A stretch of 29,613 bases of DNA from positions 1 through 29,613 of the IMG/VR virus record IMGVR_UViG_3300009433_000032; one strand, given 5' to 3'. This stretch comes from a virus. The translations under genes and the position numbers were made by a program. This document shows positions 7,418-23,216 of the stretch, piece after piece. Below the pieces are notes generated by a model. The model had not been told where the DNA came from. It worked only from the letters and a program-made list of their open reading frames with translations, and made no database searches. Within the stretch, counting starts at the first letter, position 1. Each line of letters starts with the position of its first letter.

Positions 7418-7782
7418 TGGAAAACCTCAAGTTACCTGTGGCCCTTGTGGCGGCGATGGCTGCACAGCTTGCTGCTGGCGTGTGGTGGGTGAGTCAACAG
7501 GCGGCTACGATTGCCAGCCTTGAGGAGACTGTTAGCCAGATCGGTTCCAAGATGGCGATTGAGGACAACGTGAACTTGAAACGGGACGTTCAAGACAACG
7601 CAATGGAATTGGAATATGCTTTCGATGAGATTGAAGAAATTTGGGATGAACTAGCCAACTTAGCTAATTCTATTGGTCAGGTAACGCAGTTGCAGCAACG
7701 GTTGGCTCTGATTGAAAACGATCTTAAATACATAAGCCGTGACCACAACGGAATTTTGGACATGAAAGGTGGAATGAAATGA
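7417..7782 (+). CDS. Spanin-like TM/coiled-coil protein
   Basis: 121 residues. One N-terminal TM helix (PVALVAAMAAQLAAGVWWV, about 7-25) is followed by a long heptad-rich coiled coil (about 28-110) with no further TM. A signal-anchor plus periplasmic coil just upstream of the endolysin is the layout of an inner-membrane spanin (Rz), but no embedded Rz1 lipobox ORF was seen in another frame. It overlaps both neighbours (TAATG upstream, ATGA downstream), so it is translationally coupled to holin and endolysin. Confidence 0.65.
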   Translation: MENLKLPVALVAAMAAQLAAGVWWVSQQAATIASLEETVSQIGSKMAIEDNVNLKRDVQDNAMELEYAFDEIEEIWDELANLANSIGQVTQLQQRLALIENDLKYISRDHNGILDMKGGMK

Positions 7783-8414
7783 GCGATGCAATGCGTGAAC
7801 TGCAATCTAAATGCGGCGTTTCGGCGGATGGTCAATTTGGCCCTAACACTGCCAAAGCGATTGCCAAGTTTTACCAACTATCGCCGGAAGCCGCGTCACA
7901 TTTTTTGGGACAGTGCCACCATGAAAGCGGCGGGTTTAAACGTAAGCCAGAAGAAAACCTAAACTATTCCGCAAAAGGTTTGCGATCAACCTTTGGACGT
8001 TATTTCAAAACTGACGAACAGGCAGAAGAATATGCCCGTAATCCTGAGAAAATTGCCAATTATGTTTATATGGATGAAAACCGAAAATATCCGCTTGGCA
8101 ATACAAAAGAAGGTGACGGGTGGTTGTGGCGAGGGCGCGGATTTATTCAATGCACAGGCCGTTTTAATTATAGGGCTTTTGCCAGCGAAATGCGTTTACC
8201 AGAGGTAATGGAAAACCCAGATTTAGTTGCAACAGAATACGCTATGGAAAGCGCGATTTGGTATTTTGACAAAAACAATATTTGGGTTCACTGCAAGCAC
8301 GTTACGGATGATACCATTAAAACTGTAACTAAAGCAGTTAATGGCGGAAGGCACGGTTTGGACGATAGGATGGAACAGACTTACAAAATTCACAAATGGC
8401 TTGTGTCGGATTAA
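7779..8414 (+). CDS. Endolysin, GH19 chitinase-like muramidase
   Basis: 211 residues. The GH19-type lysozyme pattern is clear: LGQCHHESGGF with the catalytic Glu at 49, ENLNYSAKGL (about 59-68), the signature RGRGFIQCTGRFNY at 118-131, and VTKAVNGG near 188-195. The length is usual for phage GH19 endolysins. A short N-terminal segment (VSADGQFGPNTAKAIAKFY) resembles the numbering motif of a minimal peptidoglycan-binding lead-in. No signal peptide, so export depends on the upstream holin. It is the last gene of the lysis operon and is followed by the candidate RNA and terminator. Confidence 0.87.
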   Translation: MSDAMRELQSKCGVSADGQFGPNTAKAIAKFYQLSPEAASHFLGQCHHESGGFKRKPEENLNYSAKGLRSTFGRYFKTDEQAEEYARNPEKIANYVYMDENRKYPLGNTKEGDGWLWRGRGFIQCTGRFNYRAFASEMRLPEVMENPDLVATEYAMESAIWYFDKNNIWVHCKHVTDDTIKTVTKAVNGGRHGLDDRMEQTYKIHKWLVSD

Positions 8415-8429
8415 CTTCGATTATATAAA
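8401..8429 (+). promoter_or_regulatory. Candidate promoter for the structured RNA
   Basis: TTGTGT at 8401-8406 and TATAAA at 8424-8429 are separated by 17 nt. The -35 box lies inside the end of the endolysin gene. A start 7 nt after the -10 box falls at 8436, the first base of a 9-bp stem. The -10 box is good and the -35 box only half matches. The placement relative to the stem is the main support. Confidence 0.42.
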
Positions 8430-8435
8430 TCTCTA

Positions 8436-8597
8436 GTGGGTGGCTATCATCACAATACAAATCGCTTTGTCCCAACGGGCGGTTGTTTACCTCGGATGAC
8501 GTTCTACAAAAAAAGCGCCAAACTTTTTAATATAACGGCCACCCACACGAACTAATAAGCTTTTAAGCCCTCCGTCCTCCCGCGGGGGGTTTTTTTA
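8436..8597 (+). ncRNA. Candidate structured non-coding RNA
   Basis: About 160 nt between the endolysin and a terminator, with no convincing ORF. By eye, GTGGGTGGC (8436-8444) pairs perfectly with GCCACCCAC (8538-8546). Inside are nested complements: TCATC/GATGA (8447-8451, 8495-8499), ACAA/TTGT (8452-8455, 8483-8486), ACAAA-TCGC-TTTGT (8457-8470), CCC-AAC-GGG (8471-8479) and AAAAAG/CTTTTT (8510-8515, 8523-8528). A Rho-independent terminator ends it. A promoter-like pair starts transcription at the stem base. I recognise no known RNA family. It could instead be an mRNA 3' structure protecting the lysis transcript. Confidence 0.5.
8576..8596 (+). terminator. Rho-independent terminator
   Basis: Stem CCTCC / GGGGG (one T-G pair) around a CGCG loop, followed by seven T residues. 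It ends the lysis operon and the candidate RNA, and separates them from the next promoter. Confidence 0.8.
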
Positions 8598-8600
8598 TTT

Positions 8601-8673: not shown

Positions 8674-9513
8674 ATGCTTGATTTTACTAAAGAAAATAAC
8701 TGGAACTTTGAAACTATCAAAGAGCCCGTACTTCGCCCTAATGGTCAACAGGTGCCAAATCTTTTCAATTTGGTTCGCACCGATACTGATACGGTTTTAC
8801 ACACTCATCGCGACTCATATACTGTGCTATCGCACGATAATGTGGTCAACGCGACTCATGAAAGCATCAAGGCTGCAAACATTTCAAGCGATTTTGATTT
8901 CAAAGTTGATTGCATTGACAGCGGTAGAAAATTGCAAATTGATGTATTGTTCAACGATGTGGTTACAGAGCCAGCGGTTGGCGATTATGTTAAATTTCGT
9001 ATCCGCGCTTTTAATTCTTATGATGGCTCATGGGCATTTCAAACATCTGCCGATGCAGAAAGACTTTGGTGCTTAAATGGTTGCACTACCGCTGATAGTA
9101 TTTCTAAATTGTGGATGCGCCATACTTCACAAATATCTACAGAAGGCGCCGCTGCAAAGATTGTTAATGGATTAGAAATTTTCCATACGCAAAAAGATTT
9201 ATGGCAGCACTGGATGAAACAAAAAGTCGACCATAACAGTGCAGAGCAATTTTTTAAACGCACATTGGTAAATCATAAAACTAAATCGAGTGAAGAAAAC
9301 TGGAACAAAAAACAACTTGAAAATTTAATGGGCCAACTTGACAGTGAATTTGCCAACCTTGGTAAAAACCAATGGGCTGTTTATAACTGCATGACACATT
9401 GGGCTACTCATACTCAAGGTGCAAAATCCCCACACAATGTTACACGAGATAGAGAACAAAAAGTTGCTTTTGCCTTAAACACACCCACTTGGAAAAATGG
9501 ATCTCTGGCATGA
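8674..9513 (+). CDS. DUF932 phage/plasmid-like protein
   Basis: 279 residues in the DUF932 (phage/plasmid-like TIGR03299) family. Family pattern: an N-terminal ending in HTHRDSYTVLSHDNVVN (about 44-60), the central KFRIRAFNSYDGSWAFQTSADAERLWCLNGC block (about 107-137) with the invariant-looking C-N-G-C, and the C-terminal AVYNCMTHWATHTQ (about 236-249) before the ending. The length is at the short end of the family. Molecular function is not known to me with certainty. First gene after an early promoter with a strong GGAGG site, so it is probably expressed early and abundantly. The stop overlaps a tiny TM ORF. Confidence 0.82.
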   Translation: MLDFTKENNWNFETIKEPVLRPNGQQVPNLFNLVRTDTDTVLHTHRDSYTVLSHDNVVNATHESIKAANISSDFDFKVDCIDSGRKLQIDVLFNDVVTEPAVGDYVKFRIRAFNSYDGSWAFQTSADAERLWCLNGCTTADSISKLWMRHTSQISTEGAAAKIVNGLEIFHTQKDLWQHWMKQKVDHNSAEQFFKRTLVNHKTKSSEENWNKKQLENLMGQLDSEFANLGKNQWAVYNCMTHWATHTQGAKSPHNVTRDREQKVAFALNTPTWKNGSLA

Positions 9514-21971: not shown

Positions 21972-23216
21972 ATGGCGACTAAGAAAAAGCTGCTGCAAAT
22001 TTCCCCGTCAGGTATAGATGGCTATTTGCTTCACACGCTAGATAATCCTAACCCTTACGGTACAAGTGCAAGCGATAGATTTGGCCTTTCTGTATCAATT
22101 TGTGATGATTACGCTATAGTTGGCGCGTATACTGAAGATGACGCTGGTGGATCAGACAGTGGAAAAGCATACATATTTAACCCGTCAACTGGCGCGTTGC
22201 TTCAAACGCTAGATAATCCCAACGCTTATAGTACAAGTGCAAGCGATTTTTTTGGCTATTCCGTATCAATTTGTAATAATTACGCTATAGCTGGCGCGTA
22301 TGCTGAAGATGACGCTGGTGGAGGGGCCAGTGGTAAGGCATATATATTTAACCCGTCAACAGGTGCGCTGCTTCATACGTTAGATAATCCAAACGCTTAC
22401 GATACAAGTATAAGCGATAGATTTGGCTGGTCCGTAGCAATTTCCAGCAGCCACGCTATAGCTGGCGCGTATGTTGAAGATGACGCTGGTGGGATAAGCA
22501 GTGGTAAGGCATACATATTTAACCCGTCAACTGGCGCGTTGCTTCACACGTTAGATAATCCCAACGCTTACGGTACAGGTCAAAGCGATTATTTTGGCTG
22601 GTCCGTATCAATTTGTGATGATTACGCTATAGTTGGCGCGTTTCTAGAAGATGACGCTGGTGGAACAGACAGTGGAAAAGCATACATATTTAACCCGGTT
22701 ACGGGTGCGTTGCTTCACACGTTAGACAATCCCAACGCTTACGGTACAAGTCAAGCCGATAGATTTGGCTATTCCGTATCAATTTGTGATGATTACGCTA
22801 TAGTTGGCGCGTATTTTGAAGATGAACCTGATGCAATTGGATTAGAAAGTGGAAAAGCATATATATTCAACCCGTCAACTGGCGCGTTGCTTCACACGCT
22901 AGATAACCCCAACGCTTACGGTCAAACTTTCAACGATTATTTTGGCTATTCCGTATCAATTTGTAATAATTACGCTATAGTTAGCGCGTATGCTGAAGAA
23001 GACGCTGGTGGGTCAACCAGTGGAAAAGCATACATATTTAACCCGGTTACGGGTGCGCTTCTTCACACGTTAGACAATCCTAACCCTTACGGTACAAGTG
23101 CAAACGATGTTTTCGGCTCTTCCGTATCAATTTCTAACAGCCACGCTATAGTTAGCGCGTATCAAGAAGATGACGCTGGTGGGTTAAACAGTGGAAAAGT
23201 ATATATATTTGATTGA
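21972..23216 (+). CDS. Seven-repeat FG-GAP-like beta-propeller protein
   Basis: 414 residues, of which about 395 are seven tandem repeats of 57 residues (the fifth has 59). Each contains LLHTLDNPNAY, then F-G-x-S-V, then AIVGAYxEDDAGG, then SGKAYIFNP. The F-G-x-S/V with a following acidic Asp-rich loop matches FG-GAP (integrin-type) blades, whose acidic loops bind calcium. Seven complete units would close a seven-bladed propeller. The last unit lacks its end, and the N-terminus may supply the closing strand. Such propellers often bind surface receptors, so an adhesin role on the tail is likely. No signal peptide. GGGG-type weak ribosome site; coupled to the upstream fibre gene. Confidence 0.83.
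   Translation: MATKKKLLQISPSGIDGYLLHTLDNPNPYGTSASDRFGLSVSICDDYAIVGAYTEDDAGGSDSGKAYIFNPSTGALLQTLDNPNAYSTSASDFFGYSVSICNNYAIAGAYAEDDAGGGASGKAYIFNPSTGALLHTLDNPNAYDTSISDRFGWSVAISSSHAIAGAYVEDDAGGISSGKAYIFNPSTGALLHTLDNPNAYGTGQSDYFGWSVSICDDYAIVGAFLEDDAGGTDSGKAYIFNPVTGALLHTLDNPNAYGTSQADRFGYSVSICDDYAIVGAYFEDEPDAIGLESGKAYIFNPSTGALLHTLDNPNAYGQTFNDYFGYSVSICNNYAIVSAYAEEDAGGSTSGKAYIFNPVTGALLHTLDNPNPYGTSANDVFGSSVSISNSHAIVSAYQEDDAGGLNSGKVYIFD
22026..23216 (+). repeat. 171-bp tandem coding repeat, seven units
   Basis: Unit starts at 22026 and 22197 are 171 bp apart and the pattern continues to the gene end; one unit is 6 bp longer. Units stay close at DNA level, for example the shared stretch with CACGCTATAG- or TACGCTATAG-type sequence and GGCGCGTTGCTTCACACG, indicating recent duplication or gene conversion. 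Recombination between units could change blade number. Confidence 0.85.

Follow-up and report, generated by a model that had tools for sequence, protein, structure and literature searches.

The region directly behind the endolysin gene of the IMG/VR virus record IMGVR_UViG_3300009433_000032 (positions 1 to 29,613; the whole stretch of 29,613 nucleotides (nt) analysed is called here the window) raises the question of whether it encodes a small phage RNA or serves the neighboring genes in some other way. The original prediction, made from the sequence alone, described a promoter-structure-terminator unit that starts at 8436, holds no convincing open reading frame (ORF) and belongs to no known family, with a 3′ structure of the lysis messenger RNA (mRNA) as the alternative. 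Comparison with homologues indicates, with a probability of about 95%, that positions 8436-8550 constitute a single-copy, phage-specific noncoding RNA gene, and the family is far wider than this one phage. As a whole, the reading of the element as a discrete phage small RNA with a predicted start at 8436 is supported. The parts of the element are as follows:

8401-8406, + strand: −35 box TTGTGT of a sigma-70 type promoter, read directly, overlapping the 3′ end of the endolysin gene
8424-8429, + strand: −10 box TATAAA, separated from the −35 box by 17 nt; predicted +1 at 8436
8436-8550, + strand: conserved RNA according to the covariance model, from the predicted +1 (first base of stem P1) through the conserved ACGA tail
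8436-8444, + strand: 5′ arm of P1, GTGGGTGGC, partner arm 8538-8546
8538-8546, + strand: 3′ arm of P1, GCCACCCAC, perfect over 9 base pairs (bp) with the 5′ arm
8447-8499, + strand: P2 domain, outer stem TCATC (8447-8451) with GATGA (8495-8499), from the minimum free energy (MFE) fold
8460-8466 with the region 8478-8484, + strand: inner stem of P2, AATCGCT with GGCGGTT, from the MFE fold
8500-8537, + strand: core arm, closed by P3, CGTT (8500-8503) with AACG (8534-8537)
8504-8509, + strand: core-arm bulge CTACAA, a degenerate form (CUACC in most members)
8510-8515 with 8523-8528, + strand: core-arm stem, AAAAAG with CTTTTT
8516-8522, + strand: core-arm loop CGCCAAA
8547-8550, + strand: conserved tail ACGA (CACCA or other in some members)
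8565-8597, + strand: intrinsic terminator, stem 8565-8592 followed by a T run; local to the window, not a family feature

The evidence for an RNA that can be drawn from this one sequence is modest, and it is the homologues that decide. The segment 8436-8600 folds with −49.9 kcal/mol (z = −3.8), a value to which the terminator contributes; with the terminator excluded (8430-8552), z is −2.9, weak by itself. The covariance model gives 8436-8550 a score of 110.7 bits on the + strand and 21.6 bits on the − strand, the window sequence itself being in the seed. The promoter is absent from the output of a generic promoter scan and would therefore go unnoticed in a single sequence.

A search based on the endolysin led to 49 loci, about 20 of which have the element directly behind the endolysin, and DNA patterns based on P1 revealed it in many further viral contigs. 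The collection comprises about 158 distinct copies with flanks, from uncultured phages, and 146 distinct elements, whose lengths (72-132 nt) are spread over all three values modulo 3; the element is therefore noncoding, in agreement with the lack of a convincing ORF noted originally. The perfect 9-bp stem is present as described, and P1 forms in every aligned sequence. The original prediction had also staked itself on compensatory changes in this stem, which the homologues do show. In an alignment of 27 sequences that includes P1 variants (GTGGGTAGC/GCTACCCAC, GTGAGTGGC/GCCACTCAC and GTGGGTGGT/GACCACCCAC), P1 is paired throughout and four of its nine pairs are changed on both sides; over the whole structure both-side changes occur in 10 of 23 pairs, none of 500 shuffles matches the score, and slid controls score far lower. 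In an alignment of 37 sequences, 91.2% of the cells are paired versus 25-57% in slid controls, and 39 cells are changed on both sides versus 16 in shuffles. P3 is paired in 98.5% and P2 in 94%, the latter covarying in homologues and strongly shortened in members L018, L100 and L106. G-U pairs, including intermediates in P1, are common on the + strand; the opposite one would have A-C in their place, which argues that the RNA is read from +; consensus folding likewise favors this strand. Because P1 patterns served to select most of the aligned sequences, invariant pairs in P1 are of little informative value, and the structural argument is carried by the varying pairs and by loci found via the core or the endolysin. 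Noncoding sequence with structure kept by compensatory change is what is expected of a small RNA gene. A pairing of the CGCCA loop with the P2 stem was considered and dropped, being inconsistent between groups. One copy (L119:842-963) has two mismatches in P1 (GTTGTTGGC versus GCCACCCAC) and may be decaying or contain a sequencing error.

Across the wide family the core is nearly invariant and consists of the CUACC bulge, the RAAUG/CAUUY stem and the CGCCA loop, while P1 and P2 vary freely in sequence. A scan based on the core rather than on P1 recovered members in which the P1 arms are unrelated in sequence yet complementary, among them AGCGCGGGCC, ATGCCAGCGCAC, GTGAGCGGCGC, GCGGCGCGCC, TGAGGTCAGC and GCAGGGGCG. 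Of the 34 core matches in which the hairpin is complete, 27 had a P1 helix score of at least 11, as did 1 of the 19 with an incomplete one and 20 of 488 random positions. A score of 9 is attained by 27% of random positions, and helices of 8-9 bp, as in a few members (such as L372 and L381), are therefore not significant alone. Both of these, together with L391, L377 and L370, are detected by model R1, which was trained on window-type sequences only.

The TTGTGT/TATAAA pair with a start at 8436 is in the sequence as originally described, and its position recurs across the family. When 19 unrelated groups of upstream flanks were aligned on the first base of P1, TTG appeared at −35 to −33 and TATAAA at −12 to −7. 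With distant members added, 37 unrelated upstream flanks have a mean promoter score of 7.5 at the P1 anchor, versus a background away from it of 3.57 ± 0.55 (maximum 5.1). The comparison of these 37 flanks thus supports a conserved promoter of its own, with the predicted +1 at the first base of P1, as expected of an independently transcribed small RNA. The terminator, the third part of the unit as first proposed, is genuine in the window but accompanies few relatives: of 53 distinct downstream flanks, 5 have a candidate intrinsic terminator next to the element, a share that does not exceed the background of 7.5%. Promoter and structure hold across the family; the terminator was rejected as a defining part, and a promoter-structure-terminator unit is consequently not the family definition. 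The intrinsic terminator and U tail typical of Hfq-dependent small RNAs are likewise found in the window but in 5 of 53 flanks. Conservation ends abruptly after CACGA, and the AU-rich sequence that follows straight after it would suit trimming by RNase E.

The statement that the element matches no known family has stood up. In Rfam 15 the window has no match at the gathering threshold; its best permissive matches are well below that threshold and mostly on the terminator, and nine distant members gave two unrelated sub-threshold matches outside the element. Searches by DNA similarity of 50,697 phage records, with the window and then with four and six forms of the element, returned nothing or short chance matches. 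The exact core pattern, which would miss variants, the window’s own core included, had no match in 385 alphaproteobacterial genomes and a single one, unconvincing on reading, in 369 gammaproteobacterial genomes. The core-only model R2 found no member among the matches listed for five bacterial genomes, a weak test, and in a loose-pattern scan of genome contigs all of the matches listed were judged to be chance, from the looseness of the pattern alone. Among cultured phages, Venkman and six regions around relatives of the endolysin contain no R1 match at E ≤ 10, and R2 gave weak partial matches only, nothing convincing; the unannotated stretch that follows the lysis genes of CRP-823 and CRP-831 reads as coding sequence and not as the family RNA. 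No description of the RNA was found in the literature searched, most subscription journals lying outside that search. From the relatives found, our impression is that most members are marine.

All of 20 long records carry exactly one copy, and their phages are diverse. The large terminase of the window is related to the HTVC010P-type and Venkman terminases; a relative of it is detectable in only 3 of these 20 records, and the terminase candidates of nine records (the window and eight others) fall into five groups that resemble one another marginally at most. Conservation in phages that share neither terminase nor endolysin implies strong selection and a partner that is probably widespread. In the window itself, the element lies between two genes:

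7779-8414, + strand: endolysin gene, 211 amino acids, GH19 chitinase-like, directly upstream of the RNA
8674-9513, + strand: DUF932 gene (PF06067, E = 6.5e-15), downstream and co-directional

The match of the endolysin to Glyco_hydro_19 (E = 4e-05, 24 bits) is just under the curated cut-off of 25.5. Across the family, the enzymes encoded upstream belong to at least five unrelated families and include GH19-like, M15 peptidase, GH108, Amidase_2 and Hydrolase_2 (the GH19 and M15 matches slightly below curated cut-offs). A GH24 phage lysozyme also occurs upstream, with one small gene between, and in some contexts a 127-amino-acid gene of no known function separates endolysin and RNA. In 129 copies with complete flanks, the upstream sequences form 19 unrelated groups and the downstream ones 32, which occur in many combinations, and comparison of the flanks indicates that the RNA gene marks a border at which phages exchange modules. 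Within L001-L086, one upstream flank is seen with many downstream flanks and vice versa. A survey of 85 distinct flank contexts, approximate since it used simple ORF calls, places a same-strand gene, often an endolysin, upstream in 65 and an ORF on the other strand in 20; in 55 the nearest upstream ORF is a + gene and the nearest downstream one is convergent. The stop codon of the convergent gene often abuts the element.

These observations suggest how the RNA might work. The + strand folds so that P1 encloses the variable P2 domain and the core arm, and host RNA polymerase would transcribe the element as a separate RNA. The 3′ end would be formed near CACGA by RNase trimming or Rho in most members, and by the intrinsic terminator in the window copy. 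The RNA would then act in trans, its core hairpin binding a partner that is itself widely conserved; a host protein or host RNA is a likelier candidate for this than a phage mRNA. As a decoy or adaptor the RNA might alter host RNA metabolism or lysis timing. Because the promoter, the spread among unrelated phages and a scaffold that varies freely around a near-invariant bulge and loop all point in this direction, we consider a separately transcribed RNA acting in trans somewhat better than an even bet; the decoy role, taken by itself, is rather doubtful. Several points weigh against this reading. The window carries a degenerate bulge (CUACAA, not CUACC), many loci were retrieved by patterns in which P1 or the core is fixed, so that invariance is partly due to selection, and most members have no adjacent intrinsic terminator, which leaves their discrete 3′ end a matter of inference. 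Furthermore, the separate transcript is a prediction from sequence comparison, and the location behind the last gene of a late operon fits a role in cis as well.

Such a cis role is the chief rival to action in trans. The element would be a 3′ structure of the late (endolysin) mRNA, protecting it from exonucleases or marking it for processing, with the internal promoter secondary. The same-strand position after the last late gene in 65 of 85 contexts, behind unrelated endolysin families, fits it well, and PhiKZ provides a precedent in a processed 3′ untranslated region (UTR) RNA (PMC8545117). A conserved promoter with its +1 at P1 would however be superfluous for a 3′ cap, the near-invariant bulge and loop exceed the needs of stability, and in 20 of the 85 approximate contexts the upstream ORF is on the other strand. 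The alternative of the original prediction is thus weakened by the RNA’s own promoter and is, in our judgment, an unlikely rival. We regard as less probable again a device for traffic control, in which the promoter fires against a convergent operon and acts through antisense RNA or polymerase collision, served by the fold. The arrangement of + gene, element and convergent gene in 55 of 85 contexts, the usually missing adjacent terminator and the abutting stop codons would agree with this, but interference needs no fixed core across unrelated flanks, and the next gene in the window is co-directional and lies behind a terminator.

The remaining explanations carry little weight. Hammerhead ribozymes occur near phage endolysins, and a small junction RNA with invariant unpaired bases and an abrupt loss of conservation after CACGA could be imagined as an undescribed class of self-cleaving ribozyme with the role of trimming the lysis transcript at its end. 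This is very improbable, given that no Rfam ribozyme matches, that the hammerhead core (CUGANGA...GAAA) is not seen by eye and that, with the promoter placing the start precisely at P1, there is no sequence 5′ of it to be cleaved off. No better placed is a palindrome acting as DNA in recombination, packaging or replication. The single copy per record and the flanks that reassort at its borders are in its favor, as is a second copy of the 3′ end past an inserted gene in L122 and L133, but G-U pairs confined to one strand, compensatory changes and a promoter aligned to the fold speak for RNA, and an RNA gene would likewise show shuffling at a conserved site. In L122 the element occupies 679-794 and the partial copy (AAACGGCCACCCACACGATTA) 1168-1183, about 390 nt downstream and past a small gene, as if recombination adds genes at the RNA gene; L133 shows the same. 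A cis leader, riboswitch or attenuator of the DUF932 gene, suggested by the order of promoter, structure, terminator and gene in the window, is hardly credible: most other contexts have no DUF932 gene, other members precede unrelated or convergent genes, and the survey, in which the downstream flanks differ and are mostly convergent rather than offering one conserved co-directional gene, refutes it for the family.

Among known systems, the RNA represents a new family within a familiar kind, the phage noncoding RNAs, in which such breadth across unrelated phages is unusual. The pRNA of phi29 is also a small phage RNA in which paired ends close two hairpin arms, but the family RNA has no Rfam pRNA match, no interlocking loop pair was found in it, and the phages sampled encode ordinary large terminases, unlike a phi29-type packaging system. 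Nor does it match the hammerhead ribozymes of Rfam or show their core on reading. Virulent phages have few known noncoding RNAs, most of them without an assigned function, as is the case for the small intergenic sRNA1 and sRNA2 of Pseudomonas phage PAK_P3 and the band C and D RNAs of T4 (PMC4933390). These RNAs (about 100 nt in PAK_P3) are of similar size to the family RNA but, like the two that follow, resemble it in kind only; they are reported from single phages or one genus, and no core common to unrelated phages has been described there. The structured RNA of about 100 nt adjoining PHIKZ298 of PhiKZ also lies at the 3′ end of a phage gene (PMC8545117), but it is described as processed from mRNA and as having no start site of its own, whereas the family RNA has a conserved 5′ promoter. 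PAK_P4as15, an RNA of about 550 nt, is likewise tied to an endolysin gene (PMC12197685), to which it is a cis antisense RNA, the family RNA being downstream and on the same strand.

A broader, tentative and rather doubtful possibility is that the family is a dedicated phage RNA effector that binds one universal host component through the CUACC-bulge/CGCCA-loop hairpin and has been passed between unrelated lineages. If so, the component would be a core factor of RNA metabolism, transcription, translation or defence, and the RNA would be a counterpart of the widespread host-takeover or counter-defence proteins. With its fixed core and variable scaffold, the RNA lends itself to pull-down and mutation experiments, and it can be sought in metatranscriptomes immediately by means of the covariance model.

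Two minor observations concern coding sequences. A small gene of one type lies beside the RNA in L361, L362, L370, L402, L403 and G007, the contexts of which otherwise differ; its product has the motif ILxxAxxxIxxxRxxxYGxxxxxFxxIAxxWxxY and resembles DUF6378 by eye only. Farther along the window, positions 21972-23216 hold an ORF of 414 amino acids that consists of tandem repeats (LDNPNAYGTS...DRFGYSVSICDDYAIVGAY) and may encode a tail or adhesion protein of the beta-propeller type.
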